Source: a virus
DNA length: 20,428 nucleotides
Virus record (IMG/VR): IMGVR_UViG_3300037189_007598
Coordinates: 1-20,428 of that record
Direction: 5' to 3' (one strand)
Shown here: positions 4,107 through 20,428 of the stretch, piece by piece
Position numbering within the stretch: position 1 is the first letter of the stretch
Layout of the letters: each line of letters starts with the position of its first letter
Notes under the pieces: generated by a model
The model's input: the letters and a program-made list of their open reading frames with translations, nothing else
Told to the model about the DNA's origin: nothing
Databases searched by the model: none
Position numbers and translations under genes: made by a program

Positions 4107-4180
4107 TTCTTCGTAGTGTAGTCCCGCCTTTAGGCGGTTCCGGTTCTTCGTAGTGTAGTCCCGCCTTTAGGCGGTTCCGG
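4107..4180. repeat. Perfect tandem 37-bp hairpin repeat (two copies)
   Basis: Two identical 37-bp units occupy 4107-4143 and 4144-4180. Each holds CCGCC-TTTA-GGCGG, a perfect 5-bp stem with TTTA loop, followed by TTCCGG. The layout matches the CACGC-TTTA-GCGTG element at 483-512 but with different, still complementary, stem bases. The tandem ends three bases before the start codon of the 4103 gene. Confidence 0.9.
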
Positions 4181-7132: not shown

Positions 7133-7186
7133 TTTCAGTTTTCAATTTTCAGTTCTCAGTTCTCAGTTCTCAGTTCTCAGTCTCCG
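7133..7186. repeat. AGTTCTC tandem heptamer tract
   Basis: Four perfect heptamers (AGTTCTC) fill 7151-7178, preceded by diverged TTTTCAG/TTTTCAA copies. Degenerate versions occur near 590, 2345, 10438, 13001 and 18842, always in gaps. Here the tract lies just after the portal stop codon. Confidence 0.8.
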
Positions 7187-10463: not shown

Positions 10464-10500
10464 CCCATCTTTTACCGCCCATCTTTCTGCCGGCTTCCGG
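10464..10500. repeat. Dispersed double repeat, CCCATCTTTTACCGCCCATC type
   Basis: Full two-half form: CCCATCTTTTACCGCC then CATCTTTCTGCCGGC with a TTCCGG tail. It lies in the gap between the large terminase and the 210-residue protein, beside a CAGTTTTTAGTTTTTTT tract. Confidence 0.75.
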
Positions 10501-12603: not shown

Positions 12604-12653
12604 TGTTTGCAGTCGCCCCACCCAAGGTCACAGGGTCTCCCGACCCCGTTCCG
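12583..12653. repeat. Compound leader cassette (iterated GTTTGC + CCAAGGTCAC...CCCCGTTCCG)
   Basis: Tandem GTTTGCCATT, GTTTGCATT and GTTTGCAG units are followed by CCCAAGGTCACAGGGTCTCC and CGACCCCGTTCCG. The same two-part arrangement recurs at 13718-13773 and 16634-16692, each time upstream of a gene whose start overlaps a leader ORF. Confidence 0.75.
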
Positions 12654-12661
12654 ACCTCCCC

Positions 12662-12691
12662 GTACGTTGTTCACGCTTTAGAATGTTCCGG
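12662..12691. repeat. GTACGTTGTT hairpin repeat with decayed stem
   Basis: GTACGTTGTT-CACGC-TTTA-GAATG-TTCCGG: the left half is identical to the copy at 483-512, but the right stem arm no longer pairs. The repeat continues into GCTTTGGTCTCTCCCC. It abuts the compound cassette upstream of the terminase. Confidence 0.65.
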
Positions 12692-12988: not shown

Positions 12989-13049
12989 AAATTTACAATT
13001 CCCAGTTTTCAGTTCCCAGTTTTCAATCTCCGATCATTCCCTTGCTCCT

Positions 13050-13694
13050 TCATTCCCTTGCCAAATTCTCCCCTTCCTTTTCCCCCACCGCTTCCACCAC
13101 CCCCACCTCCTCCGTCACCTTCTCCGGCAGCACCTCCACCACCGGCCCCACCTCGCGCACCTTCACCTTCTCCCGCGCTTTCTGCCGAAACTTCTCAAAC
13201 GCCGACACCCCTCCCTCCTGCACCTTCCCACTGATCCGCGTCGGCCCCCCACTGTGCAACTGCAGCACCTCATTGATGGACTTCACCGCGATCGACACAC
13301 TCCCCAGGTGCTTTGTCTCATCCGCCCCACACGCCTCGATCATCTCCCGCGCCTTCACAATCCCCTCACTCACCGTCGCCAGTCCCTCCGCCACAATGAT
13401 CGCCTTCCGCTCCTCCGCCGGAATCTTCCGCCGGATCAATCCCCGAATGATGCTGTGCAGCGCCTTCTTCTCCTCCGTCGTGTTCCGCCCACACAGCGGC
13501 CCCGCCAAATCCGCAATCGCCGTCACACTCACCACACCCCCCCGATACAATCCCACCATGAACTCCGCCACCTCCCGGTGATCCCGTTCAAACCGTTCCC
13601 CCGTATGCACCCGCCACGCCATCACCACCGGTGCCTCCTCCACCTCCAGCCCCAGCTCCGTCCTCATCATCAGTCCCTCATCATTCGCATTCAT
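13050..13694 (-). CDS. Candidate small terminase subunit / HTH DNA-binding protein (214 aa)
   Basis: The 214-residue protein has an N-terminal helical region with an HTH-like order (HREVAEFMVGLYRGG, VVSVTAIADLAGPLCG). A helical oligomerisation-like region follows (VAEGLATVSEGIVKAREMIE) and then LGSVSIAVKSINEVLQLHSG with GPTRISG, a layout seen in small terminases and related packaging regulators. The C-terminus is a charged Glu/Val tail. Position upstream of the large terminase supports packaging. A transcription regulator is the main alternative. ATG at 13694 follows GGGAGGATGTGGT, identical to the terminase leader, and overlaps a leader ORF stop. Confidence 0.45.
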   Translation of the reverse strand: MNANDEGLMMRTELGLEVEEAPVVMAWRVHTGERFERDHREVAEFMVGLYRGGVVSVTAIADLAGPLCGRNTTEEKKALHSIIRGLIRRKIPAEERKAIIVAEGLATVSEGIVKAREMIEACGADETKHLGSVSIAVKSINEVLQLHSGGPTRISGKVQEGGVSAFEKFRQKAREKVKVREVGPVVEVLPEKVTEEVGVVEAVGEKEGENLARE

Positions 13695-13795
13695 ACCACA
13701 TCCTCCCAGAATTTACCATCGTTTGCCATCGCCCACACCCCCAAGGTCACGGAGTCTCCCGACCCCGTTCCGGTTCTTCCTTCGTCAACCCTCAT
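13691..13795 (-). CDS. Leader ORF ending MANDGKFWEDVV, overlapping next start
   Basis: The 34-codon frame starts at 13795, reads through the CCGGAACGGGGTCGGGAG-type repeat (giving GTGSGDSVTLG) and ends MANDGKFWEDVV with TGA overlapping the ATG of the 13694 gene. The last 12 residues match the terminase leader except Gly/Ser. A shorter translation from the ATG of MAND is equally possible. Coding is inferred, not proved. Confidence 0.35.
   Translation of the reverse strand: MRVDEGRTGTGSGDSVTLGVWAMANDGKFWEDVV
13718..13773. repeat. Compound leader cassette, second copy
   Basis: ATCGTTTGCCATCG is followed by CCCCAAGGTCACGGAGTCTC and CCGACCCCGTTCCGG. It has fewer GTTTGC units than the copy upstream of the terminase. 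It forms most of the 34-codon leader ORF of the 13694 gene. Confidence 0.75.
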
Positions 13796-13845
13796 TTCGG
13801 CAAAGGAATAAAGGAGCAAAGGAATCCCAAAATCAGATTCCCCAT
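13792..13845 (-). CDS. Bridging mini-ORF MGNLILGFLCSFIPLPK
   Basis: A 17-codon hydrophobic ORF starts just beyond the stop of the 13849 gene and ends in TGA that overlaps the ATG of the next mini-ORF (ATGA). With it, the whole 154-bp gap is spanned by two consecutive overlapped ORFs. There is no Shine-Dalgarno, and chance is a serious alternative. Confidence 0.2.
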   Translation of the reverse strand: MGNLILGFLCSFIPLPK

Positions 13846-13848
13846 TTT

Positions 13849-14259
13849 TTACTGCCCATTTTTCTGCCAGCCCTCCTCTGCCGCCTTCTTCCCCAGCACC
13901 ACCTCCAAATCCCGCGCACACTCCCCAAACACCACCCGCAGCCCCGGTGCCCCATTCCAGCTCCGCCACCGTCCCGGCAGCTCCGCCACCTCCCGCAGCC
14001 GCCCCTCCAGCTCCGCCAGCTTCTCCCGCCACACCGCCTCAATCCTCACCACCTGCAGCCCATGACTCTCCTGCCGCTCAATCAACCGCCCATTCAGCTC
14101 CTCAATCAACCGCCCCGCATGCTCCTCCCACGTCACCATCTCCAGCGTTAACCCATGCACCGGGCATCGGCACAGCAGCGTCGGGTACTCACCCACCACC
14201 TCAAAATCACACTCCCGACACTTCCCCAACCTAGGCACAAATAATCGATTCGCATTCAT
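13849..14259 (-). CDS. Zinc-ribbon protein with coiled coil (136 aa)
   Basis: The N-terminus carries a treble Cys arrangement, C14-x2-C17 and C30-x-C32-P-x-H35 (KCRECDFEVV, LLCRCPVHG), which fits a zinc ribbon. A charged helix follows (EEHAGRLIEELNGRLIERQE, VWREKLAELEGRLREVAEL). The last residues, EEGWQKNGQ, are encoded by a CCCATTTTTCTGCCAGC dispersed repeat that also provides the TAA. It lies between the sigma factor and the candidate small terminase. Function is unknown; a regulatory or nucleic-acid-binding role is plausible. Its ATG overlaps the stop of a 19-codon mini-ORF (TGATG). Confidence 0.6.
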   Translation of the reverse strand: MNANRLFVPRLGKCRECDFEVVGEYPTLLCRCPVHGLTLEMVTWEEHAGRLIEELNGRLIERQESHGLQVVRIEAVWREKLAELEGRLREVAELPGRWRSWNGAPGLRVVFGECARDLEVVLGKKAAEEGWQKNGQ

Positions 14260-14318
14260 CAGTTCGTTTTCTTGTTTTGTTTTTGTTCCCTGTCCCCAAT
14301 CATTCTACCCCCCATCAT
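14259..14318 (-). CDS. Bridging mini-ORF MMGGRMIGDREQKQNKKTN
   Basis: A 19-codon ORF begins one base after the sigma-factor TAA and ends in TGA that shares its A with the ATG of the zinc-ribbon gene (TGATG). It fills the entire gap. The Lys/Asn/Gln-rich end comes from an A-rich spacer. Short overlapping frames of this kind can arise by chance. Confidence 0.3.
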   Translation of the reverse strand: MMGGRMIGDREQKQNKKTN

Positions 14319-14319
14319 T

Positions 14320-14931
14320 TTACCTTCCTCCCATCATCACCCCCAGCCGTTTCCTCAAAATCCTCAACCCCCGGCTCTCAATCTGCCGCACCCGCTCCCG
14401 CGTCAGCCCCAGCCCCAGCACCTCATTCACCTCCCGAAACGTCGGCACCCCCCATGAAAACCGCTGCCGGATCACACTTCGCATCGGCTCTTTCAATCCA
14501 TCCACGGCCGCCCACAGCCGCTCCTGCTCATCCTCCCCCGCCGCCTCCTCATCCACCTCCGCAGGCGCTGCCAGCACATCCGCCAAGCAGAACACATGCC
14601 CGCCCCCATCATTCCCGCCCGACCCCAACGGCTCGTCCAACCCACTCACAAACACCCGCACCCCCTCACGCGCCCGTTTCACCGGCACACGCACCAAATC
14701 CCGCCGGTACTCAATCCAGCGCAGCACACGGCTCTTGATGCACCAGCACGCATACGTACTGAACTTTGCACCCGCACTCTCCACAAATCGCTCCGCCGCA
14801 TACAACAACCCCAGCCGCCCTTCCTGCGCCGCATCCTCCACATCCCGCTCCATCACCATCCGCCGCACCACATGCTGCACCACATGCTGCACCAGCCCCT
14901 CATTCTCCATCAAGATCCGTTCCGCATTCAT
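14320..14931 (-). CDS. Sigma-70 family RNA polymerase sigma factor
   Basis: The product is 203 residues from the ATG at 14931. Sigma region 2 is clear: VEDAAQEGRLGLLYAAERF at about 31-49, then AKFSTYACWCIKSRVLRWI at 55-73 (core-binding and -10 recognition). Region 4.2 lies near the C-terminus as LTRERVRQIESRGLRILRKR (176-195), close to the consensus of primary sigma factors and contacting the -35 element. Region 3 is replaced by a short acidic linker. It would redirect host RNA polymerase, probably to phage genes, and sits just after the helicase. ATGs at 14934 and, through a repeat, 14961 (MGEQKNLEL) are alternative starts. The final GVMMGGR lies next to repeat-like ATGATGGG sequence. Confidence 0.85.
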   Translation of the reverse strand: MNAERILMENEGLVQHVVQHVVRRMVMERDVEDAAQEGRLGLLYAAERFVESAGAKFSTYACWCIKSRVLRWIEYRRDLVRVPVKRAREGVRVFVSGLDEPLGSGGNDGGGHVFCLADVLAAPAEVDEEAAGEDEQERLWAAVDGLKEPMRSVIRQRFSWGVPTFREVNEVLGLGLTRERVRQIESRGLRILRKRLGVMMGGR

Positions 14932-14956
14932 CATCAGTTCTAAGTTTTTTTGTTCT

Positions 14957-14994
14957 CCCATCTTTCACCGCCCATTTTTCTGCCGGCCCTCCGG
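14957..14994. repeat. Dispersed double repeat in helicase-sigma gap
   Basis: Full form: CCCATCTTTCACCGCC, CATTTTTCTGCCGGCC and CTCCGG tail. On the minus strand it supplies the ATGGGAG that opens the longer possible reading of the sigma factor. Confidence 0.75.
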
Positions 14995-15024
14995 CACATC
15001 ATCCTACCATCTTCTAGCACCCCC

Positions 15025-16614
15025 TCAAAACCCACCCAGCACCACCTGCTTAAACTTCGGGTTATTGCTGTACATCTTCAGCGTCCTCCCCTGAAACCGC
15101 TGCAAGTTCATCCGATACCGCAGCACAATATCATCCGGCGTCGCCCCATTCCGGTTCTTCGTGATGATAAACCGCGCATGCTCCTCGTAGTCCCGCTGAT
15201 ACGCATACACCTCGGCCGGCAACCCGCGCCCATCGTGCCACGCCTCCGGAAAATCCCGCCGGTACATATCCGTCACCTGCTGCCACCGCTCCTGCGTCTC
15301 CTCATTCAGCGCCGCCCACGGCCGCACCACCACTGGCCGATGAATAAACGCCACCATCGTCGGGTACTCAATCATCTCCCCCGCACCCTTCACATCCCCA
15401 TTCCCCGGCGCCTTGTTCCGCTCCTGCTTTTCCCGACCCTCTTTTGTCAACTGCACAAACAGCACAATCGTGATCCCCAGCGTTCGCCTCAACTCATGCA
15501 GCGTCTCCATGATCTCAATCTGCCCCCGCACCTTGTCTCCCTTCCCCTCCTTCGTGCTCGGCCTCAACTGCCCAAAGTGATCAATGAACACCACCTTCAC
15601 CCCATGCCGCCGCACCATCATCGTCACCCGCGCCCGAAACTCATCGCAGTCGCAAAAACTCGAATCATCCCAAAAAATCGGCGCCGCCGCAAAATCCTTC
15701 TGCGCCTGCGCGATCGCCCCCAGCGCCTCCCGCGCCAGGTGCCCATTCCGACTCACCGAAATATCCACCCCCGCCCGACCCAGCACCAACCGGTGCCCCC
15801 AGCCCACCTTCCCCATCTCCAGCGGAAACACCCCACACGCCACCCCCTGATCCACCGCCATACTCTCCAGCAAACTCACCGCCGCCCCCGTCTTACCCAT
15901 CCCCGGAAAACCCCCAATCATCAGCAGCTCACCCTGCCCATCCGGATTCAACCCATGAAACGTCCGGTCCACATCCACCCAGCCCGTCCGCACCCCCAGC
16001 ACCTTGCCCCGATTATCACAAATCGTCTGAAACGCATCCAGCCACTCCCCCACCATCTCCTTCGAATCCACAATCCGCGCCCCCGTCCCTTTCCCCTGGA
16101 ACGCATCCAGCACCTGAAACGTCCGACTCTCCGCCCGACTCAGCAGCCCCCCCACCGTCTCCTCATCCCCATGATCTTGATGCGCAAACGCCTCATGCAA
16201 ATTCAGCGTACTCGCATGAATGCTTTGCCTCAGCATCCACTTGTCCCGCACAATCTGCGTGTAATACGGATAATGTGAAGCAATCGGCACAAACCCAAAC
16301 AACTCCGACACCGCCGCCGCACCCCCGGCCTGGTCTAGCAACCCCCGATCCCGCAGCAAATGCGTCAAACTCGGCGGATCAAACGGCAACCCCTTCTGCT
16401 CACACTCAATCATCAGCTCATACATCAGCCGATTCCCCGGATGATAAAACGCCTCCGGCGGCAGCACCATCCGCGTCTCCACCACCCGCTCCGCCGGCTC
16501 CTGCAGCAAGCAGCTCAGCACCCCCTTTTCCGCCTCATCACTAAACGGCATCGGCTGATTCAGCTTCGGCAGCAGCTCCTCCGTCGTCACCCCCTTTTCT
16601 TTTCGCTCACTCAT
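15025..16614 (-). CDS. dnaB: DnaB-type replicative helicase (529 aa)
   Basis: The N-terminal domain begins with PMPFSDEAEKGVLSCLLQEP (21-40), the primase-interacting DnaB start. The RecA-like domain has Walker A GGFPGMGKT at 234-242, a FPLEM segment at 263-267, Walker B VVFIDHFGQL at 341-350, IVLFVQLTKE near 383-392 with Gln388, and the late KNRNG motif in RFIITKNRNGATPDD. Length is slightly above the usual 450-480 residues, mainly from a loop with ERNKAPGNGDVKGAGEMIEY and a following insertion. It unwinds DNA at the phage fork, probably loaded by the DUF1376 protein next door. The ATG at 16614 overlaps the stop of a 10-codon leader (ATGA), and AGGATATGATCTGGT provides a distant ribosome binding site. 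Confidence 0.88.
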   Translation of the reverse strand: MSERKEKGVTTEELLPKLNQPMPFSDEAEKGVLSCLLQEPAERVVETRMVLPPEAFYHPGNRLMYELMIECEQKGLPFDPPSLTHLLRDRGLLDQAGGAAAVSELFGFVPIASHYPYYTQIVRDKWMLRQSIHASTLNLHEAFAHQDHGDEETVGGLLSRAESRTFQVLDAFQGKGTGARIVDSKEMVGEWLDAFQTICDNRGKVLGVRTGWVDVDRTFHGLNPDGQGELLMIGGFPGMGKTGAAVSLLESMAVDQGVACGVFPLEMGKVGWGHRLVLGRAGVDISVSRNGHLAREALGAIAQAQKDFAAAPIFWDDSSFCDCDEFRARVTMMVRRHGVKVVFIDHFGQLRPSTKEGKGDKVRGQIEIMETLHELRRTLGITIVLFVQLTKEGREKQERNKAPGNGDVKGAGEMIEYPTMVAFIHRPVVVRPWAALNEETQERWQQVTDMYRRDFPEAWHDGRGLPAEVYAYQRDYEEHARFIITKNRNGATPDDIVLRYRMNLQRFQGRTLKMYSNNPKFKQVVLGGF

Positions 16615-16643
16615 ACCAGATCATATCCTTTCACAGTTTGCAT
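16611..16643 (-). CDS. Leader peptide MQTVKGYDLV overlapping helicase start
   Basis: A 10-codon ORF ends in TGA that overlaps the helicase ATG (ATGA). Its start MQT and end D-[LV]-V are shared with the terminase leader MQTMANDSKFWEDVV. The AGGA of the helicase ribosome binding site is inside it. Expression is not proved. Confidence 0.35.
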   Translation of the reverse strand: MQTVKGYDLV

Positions 16644-16692
16644 TGTTTGCAGTCGCCTACCCAAGGTCACGGAGTCTCCCGACCCCGTTCCG
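16634..16692. repeat. Compound leader cassette, third copy
   Basis: GTTTGCATT and GTTTGCAG are followed by CCCAAGGTCACGGAGTCTCC and CGACCCCGTTCCG. The repeat overlaps the end of the DUF1376 gene and gives it its last residues (ERGRETP) and TGA stop. Confidence 0.8.
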
Positions 16693-17695
16693 CTTCCGGT
16701 TCCGGCTCCCCCTCTCGCCCCAGCCACTCCCGCACCTCCGCCTGCTGTCCCTCACCCAGCATCGCCCACGGCACCCTCTCCCCATACAGCGCCACCACCG
16801 CCCCATCCCATCCCACCGGCGCACCCGTCTCCCGCACCACTCCCGTTACCTCAATCATAGCACCCGCACCCCCTCTTTTTTTTTCCGACCCCTCACGTCC
16901 CAGGCCCGATCTTTCCTCCGACACCCTTTCCGTAAACAGCCCCGCCCAATTGTTCGCCATGCTCGCCTCCACGCTTGCCTGCACCAGCTTCGCCGGAAAC
17001 CGCTGCTGCTGCCTCACCAGCACTTCCCAGCCCTTTGACTTGTAGCCCTCCCGCCGCTCCCGTTTGTACTCCCACCACTCCGTCAGCGACTCCCGATACC
17101 CCTCCGGCAGATCCCCCGGAAACTCCGGTCCCCCCCTTTTTTTCGCCAGCCCCATCAGGCCAGGAATCACCGTGTCACCCACTGCAGCTCCAACGTTCTC
17201 GCCGGATATCTCCTCCGGCAAAACGCCATCGGCATCCACCCCCGGCGGCAACGCCGCCCCCTCCGTACTTGGTTGTTGGTTCTTGGTTGGTGGTTGTTGG
17301 TTGTTGGAACGCGCGCGCGAAGCATTGCCTTCGCATCCCGCCCGCAATGCATCTGCATCTGCATCTGCATTGCTCGCCCCATGCCAACGCTTGTTGGCTG
17401 CATCCCTCGTTTTATCGCTTTTCCCCTGATACTCAATGAGTTCCTCCATCACCCGCTTATTGACCCATCCGTCTGCTGCCAAAACCCAGAACTCCTCCAG
17501 CACCCGACCCACCGCCAACTTTTCCGCAGAACTGCGTACGCCCAGCAGCCTCATCAGCACCTTCTCCTCCCCCGGCAGCGCCCGTTCCCGATCATACGCC
17601 AGGTCCAACAGCAGCGTAAACGCCCCATGCTCCAGCATCGACAAATGCCGCGTCTTCTTCGCATAATCCCCTAGGTGTCTCCAATACTTATGCAT
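16667..17695 (-). CDS. DUF1376 (YdaU-type) replication protein (342 aa)
   Basis: The first 95 residues match the DUF1376 pattern: YWRHLGDYAKKTRHLSMLEH, GAFTLLLDLAYDRERALPG, then KVLMRLLGV. These proteins are phage replication factors next to helicases, with a winged-helix-like domain. The C-terminal part (YKSKGWEVLVRQQQRFPAKL followed by SVEASMANNWAGLF) is the usual 'short helical patch' of the family. The linker at about residues 108-150 is repeat-made: ADADADA from GCATCT units and NNQQPPTKNQQPSTE from a TTGGTTGTTGG tract. The last residues, AERGRETP, come from a dispersed repeat. The start at 17695 overlaps a 9-codon leader ORF (TGATG). It lies directly upstream of the helicase. Confidence 0.75.
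   Translation of the reverse strand: MHKYWRHLGDYAKKTRHLSMLEHGAFTLLLDLAYDRERALPGEEKVLMRLLGVRSSAEKLAVGRVLEEFWVLAADGWVNKRVMEELIEYQGKSDKTRDAANKRWHGASNADADADALRAGCEGNASRARSNNQQPPTKNQQPSTEGAALPPGVDADGVLPEEISGENVGAAVGDTVIPGLMGLAKKRGGPEFPGDLPEGYRESLTEWWEYKRERREGYKSKGWEVLVRQQQRFPAKLVQASVEASMANNWAGLFTERVSEERSGLGREGSEKKRGGAGAMIEVTGVVRETGAPVGWDGAVVALYGERVPWAMLGEGQQAEVREWLGREGEPEPEAERGRETP
17269..17307. repeat. In-frame TTGGTTGTTGG repeat in DUF1376 linker
   Basis: Interrupted TTGG/TTGTTGG units encode Asn/Gln/Pro/Thr residues (NNQQPPTKNQQP) on the minus strand. It is the only gap-type repeat found deep inside a gene, and it respects the frame. A separate GCATCT triplicate at 17349-17370 encodes alternating Ala-Asp nearby. 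Confidence 0.75.
17349..17370. repeat. GCATCT hexamer repeat in DUF1376 linker
   Basis: Three GCATCT units plus GCAT encode alternating Ala and Asp on the minus strand. The hexamer length preserves the frame when copy number changes. Confidence 0.75.
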
Positions 17696-17724
17696 CAGAC
17701 CAATCCCCCATTTCTCTCAGCCAT
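17695..17724 (-). CDS. Leader peptide MAERNGGLV overlapping DUF1376 start
   Basis: A 9-codon ORF begins right after the TTTGAACTTT repeat and ends in TGA sharing its A with the ATG of the DUF1376 gene. The position after TTTGAACTTTT mirrors the start of the 17997 gene. It ends in Leu-Val, like the helicase leader. Coding is uncertain. Confidence 0.3.
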   Translation of the reverse strand: MAERNGGLV

Positions 17725-17790
17725 AAAAGTTCAAAGTTCAAAGTTCAAAATCCCTCATCTTTCACCGCCCATCTTTCTGCCGGCCTCCGG
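17724..17790. repeat. Composite repeat: AAAGTTC tract plus CCCATCTTT double unit
   Basis: Three AAAGTTC heptamers (17724-17750) are followed by CATCTTTCACCGCC and CATCTTTCTGCCGGC with a CTCCGG tail. The second part lies inside the 3' end of the 17755 gene. Confidence 0.8.
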
Positions 17791-17997
17791 TTCAGGCACC
17801 CCATTCCGCGCCACCTGCACCTCCGCCGCCACCAGCGCCCGTTTCAGCACCCGCACCGCCAAATGCGCCGACTTCCGCCCCGTCATCGTCGCCTCATCCC
17901 CCACCGGCAGCTCAATCGTCACCACCGGCCAGATCCCACCCCCCGCACGCCGTTCCCCCACCACCACACACAAAGCATTTTCATTCATCTCACCCAT
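17755..17997 (-). CDS. Unknown small protein with repeat-derived C-terminus (80 aa)
   Basis: The 80-residue product starts MGEMNENALCVVVGERRAGG and continues WPVVTIELPVGDEATMTGRK and AVRVLKRALVAAEVQ, an apparent beta-beta-alpha layout. Its final EPEAGRKMGGER and TGA are written by the CCCATCTTTCTGCCGGC repeat, so the original gene end has been replaced or extended. No family was recognised. It lies between an HTH-like protein and the DUF1376 gene. Confidence 0.55.
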   Translation of the reverse strand: MGEMNENALCVVVGERRAGGGIWPVVTIELPVGDEATMTGRKSAHLAVRVLKRALVAAEVQVARNGVPEPEAGRKMGGER

Positions 17998-18058
17998 AAA
18001 AGTTCAAAGTTTAAAGTTCAAAATCCCCATCTTTTACCGCCCATCTTTTACCAGCCCC
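17998..18058. repeat. Composite repeat: AAAGTTC tract plus CCCATCTTTTACC double unit
   Basis: AAAGTTCAAAGTTTAAAGTTC is truncated here to positions 17998-18023, followed by two CCCATCTTTTACC units. The order of the two families is the same as at 17724-17790. It fills most of the gap between the HTH-like gene and the 17997 start. Confidence 0.8.
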
Positions 18059-18079
18059 TGGTATCCGCTCCACCCAGGC

Positions 18080-18307
18080 TCAAAGCGTCCCCTCCAAATC
18101 AAACCCCAGCTCCTGCGCCCACCGCCTCAGCACCTTCCGCGTCGTCCTCAGCCGCTTCAACATCACCGCCGCCGAATACCCCGCCCGCCGCTGACACTTA
18201 AACGTCCGCAGCACCTTCAGCCGATCCACCGCATCCACCCGCCGCTTCTGCGCATGCACCGACCTCGTCTTATCCTTCTGCACATCCACCCAATTTCGCT
18301 CACTCAT
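18080..18307 (-). CDS. HTH-like small basic protein (75 aa)
   Basis: The 75-residue product is very basic (VHAQKRRVDAVDRLKVLRTF) and its middle (RRAGYSAAVMLKRLRTTRKV followed by LRRWAQELGFDLEG) has the helix-turn-helix look of a small DNA-binding domain. It may regulate phage transcription or bind DNA at replication genes that follow. The evidence is composition and helix spacing only. ATG at 18307 was preferred over the TTG at 18310. It lies behind TTTGAACTTTG repeat sequence and has no clear Shine-Dalgarno. Confidence 0.5.
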   Translation of the reverse strand: MSERNWVDVQKDKTRSVHAQKRRVDAVDRLKVLRTFKCQRRAGYSAAVMLKRLRTTRKVLRRWAQELGFDLEGTL

Positions 18308-18352
18308 CAAAGTTCAAAGTTTAAAGTTCAAAGTTCAAAATCCCCATCTATT
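18308..18352. repeat. AAAGTTC tract with single CCCATCT unit
   Basis: AAAGTTC heptamers (four, one with TTTAAAG) are followed by CCCCATCTATTTGCC. It fills the whole 49-bp gap between the 18357 stop and the 18307 start. Confidence 0.8.
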
Positions 18353-18356
18353 TGCC

Positions 18357-18821
18357 TCACTCCGGCTCCTGCAGTTCCCACCGCTTTAACAAACCCGCCA
18401 GCGCCTTCAGCGACGGATGCCTCTCAAAGCCTGGCACCAGCTCCCTATCATCACACGTCACCCGGGCATGCGCGCGCAGCCACAAACGCCCCCTGACCGC
18501 CCCGCCGATCTCCAAACGCACCCCCATTTGATGCGCGATCAAAACGGCATTTGTCAGCCCCATGCAGTCAAACGTACTCAGCGTCCCAAGCATCCGCGTC
18601 TCCACCCCCTTAGGCCCGCACGGCCTGATCTTGTCCATCAAATGATGGTAGCCCCCTCGAAGCACCGCCAGCGCATAGCTCGCCAGCAGCTGCTCATCCG
18701 TCCATCCTTTCCCGTGGTAGGCCATACTTTCCCGCGCCTCCTCAATCATTCCCCTCAGCGCCGCATGCCGTTCTGGATACACCTTTTCCTGTCCCGTCAG
18801 TTCATTATTCGAATCACTCAT
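18357..18821 (-). CDS. Unknown protein (154 aa)
   Basis: The 154-residue soluble protein has a helical N-terminal half (PERHAALRGMIEEARESMAY, LLASYALAVLRGGYHHLMDK) and a C-terminal half with TLSTFDCMGLTNAVLIAHQM and LWLRAHARVTCDDRELVPGF. I do not recognise it. Its start at 18821 overlaps the stop of a 15-codon mini-ORF (ATGA). It belongs to the early accessory block upstream of the replication genes. Confidence 0.6.
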   Translation of the reverse strand: MSDSNNELTGQEKVYPERHAALRGMIEEARESMAYHGKGWTDEQLLASYALAVLRGGYHHLMDKIRPCGPKGVETRMLGTLSTFDCMGLTNAVLIAHQMGVRLEIGGAVRGRLWLRAHARVTCDDRELVPGFERHPSLKALAGLLKRWELQEPE

Positions 18822-18865
18822 AGTCTCAGATAATTTAAAATTTTCAGTTCCCCGTTCTCAGTCAT
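18818..18865 (-). CDS. Bridging mini-ORF MTENGELKILNYLRL
   Basis: A 15-codon ORF starts immediately after the TGA of the 18866 gene and ends in TGA overlapping the next ATG (ATGA), so it exactly spans the 44-bp gap. It has no ribosome binding site of its own; it could be a reinitiation bridge or coincidence. Confidence 0.3.
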   Translation of the reverse strand: MTENGELKILNYLRL

Positions 18866-19180
18866 TCAATGTTCAAAGTTCTCCTCCGCCCTCTCCCCAC
18901 TCGCCCGCATCTTCCCATCCAGCACCCGCCGCTCCTCGCCGCGCCACGGCAGCGCCAGCATCGGCCCCCGGCTCACCATCCCCAGCACCTCATTCATCCC
19001 CAGCCGCACCGCCAGCAGCTCCCCCGCCGGCAGATCCCGCACCACAGCCAACGTCTCCGTCACCCGCGCACACGCCCGCCTCAACAACACCCGCTGCATC
19101 TCCACCGTCAGGCCAGCGTCAGACAGCCCCTGGTCACACAGCCCCGCCCCACTAAAATAACTGTTCGCCAAAATCTTCAT
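18866..19180 (-). CDS. Unknown helical protein (104 aa)
   Basis: The 104-residue product starts MKILANSYFSGAGLCDQGLS and is mostly helical (VEMQRVLLRRACARVTETLA, GELLAVRLGMNEVLGMV). The C-terminus (RASGERAEENFEH) runs into a TTTGAAC-type repeat. ATG at 19180 was chosen; an in-frame ATG at 19210 (MGNLELEIFV) lies inside a dispersed repeat and would add 10 repeat-derived residues. No family was recognised. Confidence 0.55.
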   Translation of the reverse strand: MKILANSYFSGAGLCDQGLSDAGLTVEMQRVLLRRACARVTETLAVVRDLPAGELLAVRLGMNEVLGMVSRGPMLALPWRGEERRVLDGKMRASGERAEENFEH

Positions 19181-19204
19181 CACAAAAATTTCCAGTTCTA
19201 AATT

Positions 19205-19232
19205 CCCCATCTTTCACCGCCCATTTTTTTGC
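19205..19232. repeat. Dispersed double repeat, CCCATCTTTCACCGCC type
   Basis: CCCATCTTTCACCGCC is followed by CATTTTTTTGC, a diverged second half. It supplies the alternative upstream ATG of the 18866-19180 gene. Confidence 0.7.
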
Positions 19233-19282
19233 ATCACTTGGCGGCCATTCACCGCCTCGTGCATGGGCGACATTTCCTTTGG

Positions 19283-19352
19283 GTTTGGCTTAAGCTTTTC
19301 CCAGCTTCTGGGTGGAGGTTTGGCTTAAGCTTTTCCCAGCTTCTGGGTGGAG
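19283..19352. repeat. Perfect 35-bp tandem duplication with CCCAG-CTT-CTGGG hairpin
   Basis: Two identical 35-bp units (19283-19317, 19318-19352) each hold CCCAGCTTCTGGG, a 5-bp stem with a CTT loop, and TTAAGCTTTT. The right copy encodes the C-terminus STQKLGKA and TAA of the 19325 gene; the left copy lies beyond its stop. Confidence 0.9.
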
Positions 19353-19690
19353 TCTTCGCGCTCTGCCTTTTTGCGCAGCATCTTTGCAACTCCCTGCTGC
19401 GCGATTCGCAGTGCCTGCACCGCCTTCCGTCCCCCCGCGATCCGCAACGCCGCATTCATCACATCCCCCTTCACCCCCGTCGAACCACACTCCAGCCCCG
19501 CGAAGAAGTTCCCCGCCCGCAGCACCAGCTCCTCCAGCTCCCGGATCTCCCGGCCCATCGTCTCCATCATCTTCCGATCCGGCGACAATGCCGACACCAG
19601 CACAAAGCCCTTCACCCCAGGACACCCCGGCTCATAACAATCCACGCAGCTGCTCAGCAAGCACTGCGGACAACGTCGGTTATCAGTCAT
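19325..19690 (-). CDS. Cys-rich (zinc-binding-like) protein with helical body (121 aa)
   Basis: The N-terminus MTDNRRCPQCLLSSCVDCYE carries C7-x2-C10 and C15-x2-C18 plus C23, a zinc-binding pattern. Then comes a helical body (MMETMGREIRELEELVLRAG, KAVQALRIAQQGVAKMLRKK). The last residues STQKLGKA and the TAA are encoded by a tandemly duplicated 35-bp repeat. The ATG at 19690 was preferred over GTG at 19753, because that extension would read through the hairpin at 19735-19762. Function is unknown; a nucleic-acid or regulatory role is possible from the Cys pattern. Confidence 0.55.
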   Translation of the reverse strand: MTDNRRCPQCLLSSCVDCYEPGCPGVKGFVLVSALSPDRKMMETMGREIRELEELVLRAGNFFAGLECGSTGVKGDVMNAALRIAGGRKAVQALRIAQQGVAKMLRKKAEREDSTQKLGKA

Positions 19691-19734: not shown

Positions 19735-19779
19735 CCCCGGGCGGTCCACACACCGCCCGGGGGCCTTTTTCTTTTTTTT
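19735..19779 (+). terminator. Rightward-facing intrinsic terminator
   Basis: An 11-bp perfect stem (CCCCGGGCGGT / ACCGCCCGGGG, loop CCACAC) is followed on the plus strand by CCTTTTTCTTTTTTTT. Read on the minus strand there is no T-tract after the stem, so it should stop rightward transcripts. No rightward gene is visible before it. Confidence 0.7.
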
Positions 19780-20428
19780 CAGTTCACAAACGGACACCTC
19801 CCTAGGTCCGCCAAAATCGTCCGCTTCAAGGAGCCTAGTTTGCTCTCATCCTGCTTCCACGGCTCATGTAGCGCCACCACCCACCAGCGTTCACCCCGCC
19901 ATAGCTGCGGGTTCAACGTCGCATGCAGCGCCTGGTGGCAGCACAACTTCAGCGGCCCCGGAATCACCTCCTCAAGACCCACCACCGCCCGCGTTCCAGT
20001 TCCCCCGTTGGCCGGTTGCCCGTCCCTCGTTGACCTCCAAAACGCCGCCACCGTGCCGCTTTGCTGGTAAGGCTCCAGCAAAGCCGCAAAATACCGCGCC
20101 TGATCCGCATCGTCGCCGTCGCCGGAGCCGTAGCCGTAGCCGTCGCCGTCGCCGGAGCCGTAGCCGTCGCCGTAGCCGTAGCCGTAGCCGTAGCCGTAGC
20201 CGTCGCCGTAGCCGTAGCCGTCGCCGGAGCCGTAGCCGTAGCCGGAGCCGTCGCCGTAGCCGTAGCCGTCGCCGGAGCCGGAGCCGGAGCCGGAGCCGTA
20301 GCCGTCGCCGTCGCCGTCGCCGTAGCCGTCGCCGTAGCCGTCGCCGGAGCCGTCGCCGGAGCCGGAGCCGGAGCCGTAGCCGGAGCCGGAGCCGTAGCCG
20401 GAGCCGGAGCCGGAGCCGGAGCCGTAGC
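19779..20428 (-). CDS. Gly-X repeat protein with conserved C-terminal domain (5' end outside window)
   Basis: The frame enters at the right edge and ends at the TGA at 19779. Its first 105 or so visible residues are Gly alternating with Tyr, Ser or Asp (53 X positions, 20 Tyr, 18 Ser, 15 Asp), all Gly being GGC. A globular C-terminal domain of about 110 residues follows: DDADQARYFAALLEPYQQSG, GLEEVIPGPLKLCCHQALHA, TLNPQLWRGERWWVVALHE and LGSLKRTILADLGRCPF. The 'LKLC-xx-ALHAT-xP-xxWxGxRxWxVAL' order resembles small domains of unknown function found in phage-associated proteins, but I cannot name it with confidence. No signal peptide can be seen because the start is missing. An annotation beginning at the internal ATG-like start near 20081 would miss the repeat. 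Confidence 0.7.
   Translation of the reverse strand, partial: YGSGSGSGSGYGSGSGYGSGSGSGDGSGDGYGDGYGDGDGDGYGSGSGSGSGDGYGYGDGSGYGYGSGDGYGYGDGYGYGYGYGYGDGYGSGDGDGYGYGSGDGDDADQARYFAALLEPYQQSGTVAAFWRSTRDGQPANGGTGTRAVVGLEEVIPGPLKLCCHQALHATLNPQLWRGERWWVVALHEPWKQDESKLGSLKRTILADLGRCPFVN
20112..20428 (-). repeat. Hexanucleotide array GGC-TAC / GGC-TCC / GGC-GAC (about 53 units)
   Basis: Every hexamer is GGC plus one of TAC, TCC or GAC on the minus strand; no other codon occurs. Order is irregular. Ser units dominate at the protein's N-terminal side (20340-20428), Tyr units at 20160-20220. The array runs off the window edge, so true length is unknown. Confidence 0.95.

Follow-up and report, generated by a model that had tools for sequence, protein, structure and literature searches.

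In this work, we describe a 20,428-base fragment of a viral genome, IMG/VR record IMGVR_UViG_3300037189_007598 (hereafter, the window), in which several families of very short dispersed repeats occupy the junctions between genes and, at some gene ends, encode the last residues and the stop codon of the protein. The best explanation of the data as a whole, to which we assign a probability of about 0.62, is that of small mobile repeats, tolerated at the junctions, tails and loops of phage genes, in a mosaic lineage of Verrucomicrobiaceae phages to which the window belongs. All genes called in the window lie on the minus strand, as do the features given below unless stated otherwise, and genes are named by their lower coordinate. 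A DnaB helicase, a sigma factor and a DUF1376 primosomal protein are encoded, along with homologues of the terminase and the portal protein. Relatives were gathered through alignments of the helicase (L005), the terminase (L034, L087, L081 and others) and the portal protein (L135, L146 and others). They were compared together with C63, a prophage-like region within a Verrucomicrobiaceae metagenome-assembled genome, the two stretches of which are L026 and L027 and in which Pfam domains of terminase, DnaB, DUF1376 and DNA methylase were identified.

The repeats, with the working names R1 to R7, are 24–33 nucleotides (nt) long and are given in the coding-strand sense. The consensus sequences are GGCAGAAAGATGGGCGGTAAAAGATGGG for R1, CGGAACGGGGTCGGGAGACCCCGTGACCTTGGG for R2, GGAACCGCCTAAAGGCGGGACTACACTACGAAG for R3, GGATTCCTTTGCTCCTTTATTCCTTTGCC for R5, CACGCTAAAGCGTGAACAACGTAC for R6 and CCACCCAGAAGCTGGGAAAAGCTTAAGCC for R7, and R4 consists of heptads, AACTTTG in R4a and AACTGAG in R4b. 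The dispersed repeats of the window are real and exceed chance: an ungapped scan identified 30 matches in the window compared with 3, all to R4a, in the reversed window sequence. Matches to R4 with three or four mismatches may be due to chance. The same scan yielded 9 and 21 matches in L026 and L027, 14 in L006, 15 in L007 and one in L034, and none in L005, L087, L081, L135 and L146, all of which encode homologues of window genes. The window and C63 have many repeat stretches in common that are 83–97% identical, whereas their alignable proteins are only 21–51% identical. After merging, none of the 28 copies in the window lies inside a gene, where random placement would put 83% of them, and all 63 merged copies of families other than R5 (26 in the window, 25 in C63 and 12 in L007) are oriented in the same direction as the genes; R5 copies were found in both directions.

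The initial annotation placed the stop codons and final residues of genes 19325, 17755, 16667 and 13849 within copies of three repeat families, and a codon-by-codon check bears this out. Gene 16667 (16667–17695), encoding the DUF1376 primosomal protein, ends with ERGRETP in an R2 copy (16660–16692; 32 of 33 bases match), and gene 17755 (17755–17997) ends with EPEAGRKMGGER in R1 (17754–17781) plus its 5′ extension GAACCGGAGGCC (together 17754–17793). Gene 13849 (13849–14259) ends with QKNGQ in another R1 copy (13841–13868), which is read in a different frame from that used in gene 17755. Gene 19325 (19325–19690), to which no function was assigned, acquires its last seven residues, TQKLGKA, and its stop from R7 (19322–19350; 29 of 29 bases match), with the hairpin CCCAG-AAG-CTGGG; a second, identical R7 copy is intergenic (19287–19315). 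Some residues previously counted in these tails fall just beyond the repeat boundaries as set here: the leading S of STQKLGKA, the A that opens AERGRETP and the initial GW of GWQKNGQ. A fifth repeat-coded end had been overlooked: gene 13050 terminates with ARE and the stop codon in an R5 copy on the opposite (plus) strand (13034–13062), bringing in a fourth family.

Comparison with homologues indicates that repeats wrote the ends of genes 16667, 17755 and 13050, because the repeat-free homologues stop earlier or end differently. The R2 tail is absent from all five homologues of gene 16667: those in L005, L081 and L135 end with REWLKEEAA, RAWLDSRKEKGGELV and RAWLREHGKEAA, respectively, the C63 protein continues with other sequence and the L087 protein diverges earlier. 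The one homologue of gene 17755, in L087, has a repeat-free tail of its own (VGQANADHLKLLLTNDDAA), and the one homologue of gene 13050, in L034, is shorter and lacks the repeat-coded end; only the last three codons and the stop of gene 13050 are covered by R5, so that most of its extension is not repeat. For genes 13849 and 19325, no homologue was found among the viral contigs searched. C63 contains a distant relative of gene 13849 (33% identity over 63 residues; L027 10151–10705), which is interrupted by an in-frame TAG, suggestive of decay or of a split gene, and the second part of which stops some 16 nt short of an R1-like copy. R1-coded tails also occur in C63 itself, with DPEPGAGRKMGGEKWGTEEGGGELR at 60014–60292 and GRQKDGR, in another frame, at 54852–55133.

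The opposite outcome was obtained for gene 18866, which had been put forward as a weaker case. Its end, NFEH, coincides with a heptad-like R4a match (18864–18881; 16 of 18 positions, two mismatches), but the repeat-free homologues in L087 and L005 end with the similar DTFEP and DTFLPHE, so this tail is inherited coding sequence and not an inserted repeat. Thus, a tail shared with repeat-free homologues, which would speak against an origin from repeats, was encountered for gene 18866 and for none of genes 16667, 17755 and 13050.

The initial annotation went further and offered, as one reading, that the repeats serve as tail-plus-stop modules; as a dedicated role, this is unsupported. With each copy slid over its own junction to obtain the expectation, six stop overlaps were observed (18866 and 13050 counted) against 4.94 expected (P = 0.37), which is the level of plain junction filling, and stop codons were accordingly rejected as a special target. 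Overlaps with start codons were rarer than expected (1 versus 4.95, P = 0.028), a figure that depends on the start codons chosen, R1 holding alternative ATGs at 14961 and 19210. Furthermore, genes differ in the frame in which they read a single family, R1, and the same families appear in open frames inside the terminase, the portal protein and a giant protein of related phages. The overall pattern fits repeats that occupy junctions, the last codons of genes being tolerant.

In the C63 terminase, two R3 copies followed by R2 are in frame and encode the peptide SPDRLKAGLQYSETDRLKAGLQYSETDRTGSGDPVTLG in a variable region, and the C63 portal protein contains two in-frame R2 peptides; both reading frames are intact. 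The terminase peptide is absent from L005, L034 and the window, and the portal peptides are absent from L005, L081, L087 and the window. C63 is possibly a prophage in decay, its repeat peptides being known from gene sequence. The giant protein is encoded by IMGVR_UViG_3300006805_000034, a contig found through R3, in an open reading frame of 2,531 amino acids (L293 3063–10658) that yielded no Pfam hit and includes nine in-frame peptides coded by R3, R6 and R5, located in apparent linkers.

With regard to possible mobility, R2 folds into a hairpin (ACGGGGTC-GGGA-GACTCCGT) with a stem of eight pairs and a GGGA loop (−15.6 kcal/mol, z = −2.18), and 24 of 28 copies, chosen by similarity to the consensus, are fully paired over the eight positions. 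R3 and R6 also fold as hairpins and display two-sided stem changes, CCGCC/GGCGG and CCGGC/GCCGG in R3 and CACGC/GCGTG and CGGGC/GCCCG in R6; R1, R4 and R5 fold no better than shuffled sequences, and R7 not clearly better. The gene for a REP-associated tyrosine transposase (RAYT; REP, repetitive extragenic palindrome) in the host genome G001 (C81:18486–19130) has R2 copies on both sides. Among 30 RAYT loci ranked by similarity, a test in which R2 alone was scored, the R2 core adjoins all four orthologues with at least 84% identity (G001, G054, G041 and G027) and none of the 26 others. We therefore consider R2 to be REP-like, as a hairpin flanking one close set of host RAYT orthologues.

Under the favoured reading of small mobile repeats, gene junctions would have been filled by several such families, with R2 as a REP-like hairpin that goes with the host RAYT, a single-strand transposase, R3 and R6 as REP-like by structure, R4 as heptad tandem repeats, and R1 and R5 as other short repeats. 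Copies would land or persist mostly between genes because gene interiors are intolerant. If a copy came to lie within a few codons ahead of the old stop, the frame would continue into the copy and end at the first stop encountered, producing a new tail; in the open frame of a variable loop or linker, a copy would instead be read through as an inner peptide. We infer that the host RAYT acts in trans to move R2 into phage DNA; R1, R4 and R5 would be mobile as well, and the repeat-coded tails are probably tolerated by-products without function.

Several observations weigh against this reading. Neither an insertion event nor a target-site duplication nor a polymorphic site was observed, and R1, R4 and R5 have no known mover. 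The common direction of all 63 non-R5 copies implies that free insertion into junctions alone is insufficient as an explanation. There is no GTAG tetranucleotide 5′ of the R2 palindrome, where a conserved CCAAGGTS is found on the reverse strand. A host source is thinly supported, as few of the host genomes searched contain the repeats: the exact R2 pattern occurs in 3 of 68 genomes of the family, with 12 copies, R3 in 6 of 68 (up to two mismatches) and R1 in 5 of 68 (up to three mismatches). Given that R2 does not reach a high copy number in hosts, we term it REP-like and do not file it as a REP. No RAYT flanked by R3, R6 or R7 was detected in 30 RAYT loci and 20 regions examined; in L201, R3-like copies lie at least 3.7 kb from its RAYT. 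An identity of these elements as ordinary abundant host repeats was not supported: of the 68 family genomes, 1 contains the exact R1, solely within C63. In the viral contigs, the exact 28-nt R2 pattern had no match and the R3 pattern was found in 11 stretches on 5 contigs; among 50,697 records of cultured phages, there was no match to the R3 pair, the R1-R5-R2 junction or the terminase protein.

A bolder version of the mobile-repeat reading, which we consider doubtful, is that the repeats form a shared strand-biased kit, in which REP-like elements mobilised by a host transposase, together with heptad repeats, copy onto replicating phage DNA, pull ATGA-coupled gene pairs apart into separate modules and keep rewriting tails, loops and linkers, core proteins included. 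The main reading of small mobile repeats also draws on the junctions of the relatives. In L005, L081, L135, L087 and L034, the homologous genes join the next gene by an ATGA overlap, and the same junctions in the window are spacers with repeats. In L087, the homologues of genes 18866 and 17755 are adjacent in this manner, with genes 18357 and 18080 in between in the window; in L034, the homologue of gene 13050 abuts the terminase, with gene 12734 in between in the window; and repeats are present in the junctions around all three extra genes.

These extra genes also bear on the possibility, which we rate as less likely, that the repeats are exchange seams, that is, shared homology for single-gene swaps that marks the borders of imported genes, with the tails as recombination scars. 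The best matches of window genes are indeed spread over different phages, including L005 for the helicase (74%), L034 for the terminase (67%), L146 for gene 9798 (73%), L087 for the capsid (56%), L006 for gene 18357 (51%) and C63 for gene 18080 (51%). Because the extra genes are flanked by repeats and the best matches come from different phages, exchange at repeats is supported as a second process. However, repeats are also present at junctions where no gene gain is evident, as well as inside the terminase and the portal protein, seams of 28–33 nt offer little length to homologous recombination, and recombinant pairs were not observed.

Alternatively, the repeats could be selected junction signals acting on the transcript as stop, spacer, leader or RNA-processing modules, an explanation that we regard as rather unlikely. 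It would account for the common direction of repeats and genes in three phages; yet all genes are on one strand, so that a replication strand bias would look alike. The R4 heptads, with a TGA in each unit, supply a stop in each of the three frames, but solely in this direction, and in host genomes all four R1 copies with a called neighbour are placed after a gene end and in the orientation of that gene (uncorrected codon table). Comparable TAACTGA heptads of Beggiatoaceae are, according to excerpts of the report, mostly located just before start codons, with some over upstream stops (PMC4679880). On the other hand, stop overlaps are about as frequent as junction filling would yield by chance, and the internal copies in the terminase and the portal protein have no such role. 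A promoter or intrinsic terminator within the repeats was also considered but was not supported, as no sigma-70-like promoter or terminator-like site was found there on the gene strand, a result that is weak since the phage has its own sigma factor. Finally, that the tails are ancestral protein sequence, with a coincidental or low-complexity resemblance to repeats, is true for gene 18866 but very improbable in general, being refuted by the homologues of genes 16667, 17755 and 13050 and at odds with the near-complete base matches at 16667 and 19325.

The remaining copies in the window are as follows. An R1 copy lies 5′ of gene 18866 (19206–19233) and another between the helicase and sigma-factor genes (14957–14984); these put an in-frame ATGGG, a potential alternative start, at 19210 and 14961, upstream of the likely starts of gene 18866 and the sigma factor, and therefore repeats could add N-termini too. 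R4a heptads are located between genes 18357 and 18080 (18305–18336), with an R1 variant between genes 18080 and 17755 (18002–18053), and before gene 16667 (17729–17746). Downstream follow intergenic copies of R5 (13799–13827) and of R2, upstream of gene 13050 (13740–13772), R2 and R6 between gene 12734 and the terminase (12621–12685), a consensus R1 after the terminase (10464–10491), R4b heptads after the portal gene (7145–7176), two identical R3 copies with the hairpin CCGCC-TAAA-GGCGG after the capsid gene (4109–4178), and an intergenic R6 with the hairpin CACGC-TAAA-GCGTG (483–506).

Other repeat-like stretches were noted as well. The linker of gene 16667 contains a heptad-like repeat (17260–17330) that codes for NNQQPPTKNQQPSTE, with a similar stretch, TTNNQQPATT, in L135. 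The end of the sigma factor, VMMGGR, adjoins an R1-like run (GGTAAAATGATGGGGGG; 14320–14350), by eye a possible further repeat-made end. A hexamer-based tandem repeat of the GCCGTAGCCGGAGCC type, a long Gly-Ser/Asp-Tyr coding stretch, occupies the end of the record (20043–20428), and a strong terminator-like hairpin with a T-run is found on the plus strand (19735–19762), opposing the direction of all genes.

Discussions of short repeats usually treat them as a feature of bacteria and of DNA outside genes, whereas here several families are present in tightly packed phage genomes. They provide a direct case, open to testing, in which small mobile DNA gives rise to viral coding sequence, in the form of altered protein ends and of peptides in the terminase and the portal protein. 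The results further suggest that phage DNA may be a substrate of a host RAYT. They may also account for the way in which operons with overlapping genes turn into separable modules in mosaic phages.

Each part of this arrangement has precedents in bacteria, and the literature searched yielded no case of the combination in phages and no description of REP/RAYT elements within phage genes (subscription papers were mostly outside coverage). The mobile regulatory cassettes of T4-type phages are dispersed intergenic elements with a promoter and a stem-loop and are tied to module shuffling; in the repeats described here, no sigma-70-like promoter was found, in a phage with its own sigma factor. R4 is of the same type as the Beggiatoaceae heptads, as excerpted from MacGregor 2015 (PMC4679880), but has the units AACTTTG and AACTGAG, resides in a phage and is mixed with hairpin repeats, and its sole apparent stop overlap (gene 18866) is no insertion. 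REPs, as outlined in part of PMC8266576, are small palindromes of 20–50 nt after a tetranucleotide, most often GTAG, and are mostly intergenic, and REPINs lie beside RAYT genes, according to the portion of PMC3116915 available. R2 resembles these REP/RAYT systems (REPtrons) as a 20–50-nt hairpin beside one RAYT clade, but differs in its location in the junctions and gene interiors of phages, its few host copies and the missing GTAG. In R3, GTAG is present two bases before the stem on the other strand and the TTTA loop is like that of a Marinomonas REP in the excerpted text (PMC8266576), although a cognate RAYT was not found. Rickettsia palindromic elements, in the accessible part of PMC10969869, are bacterial repeat families of about 150 bp that are in frame in unrelated protein genes. 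The C63 terminase and portal protein match them in carrying in-frame insertions absent from homologues, whereas the repeats described here are 24–33 nt long, reside in phage genes associated with another phylum and often form the C-terminus and the stop codon.

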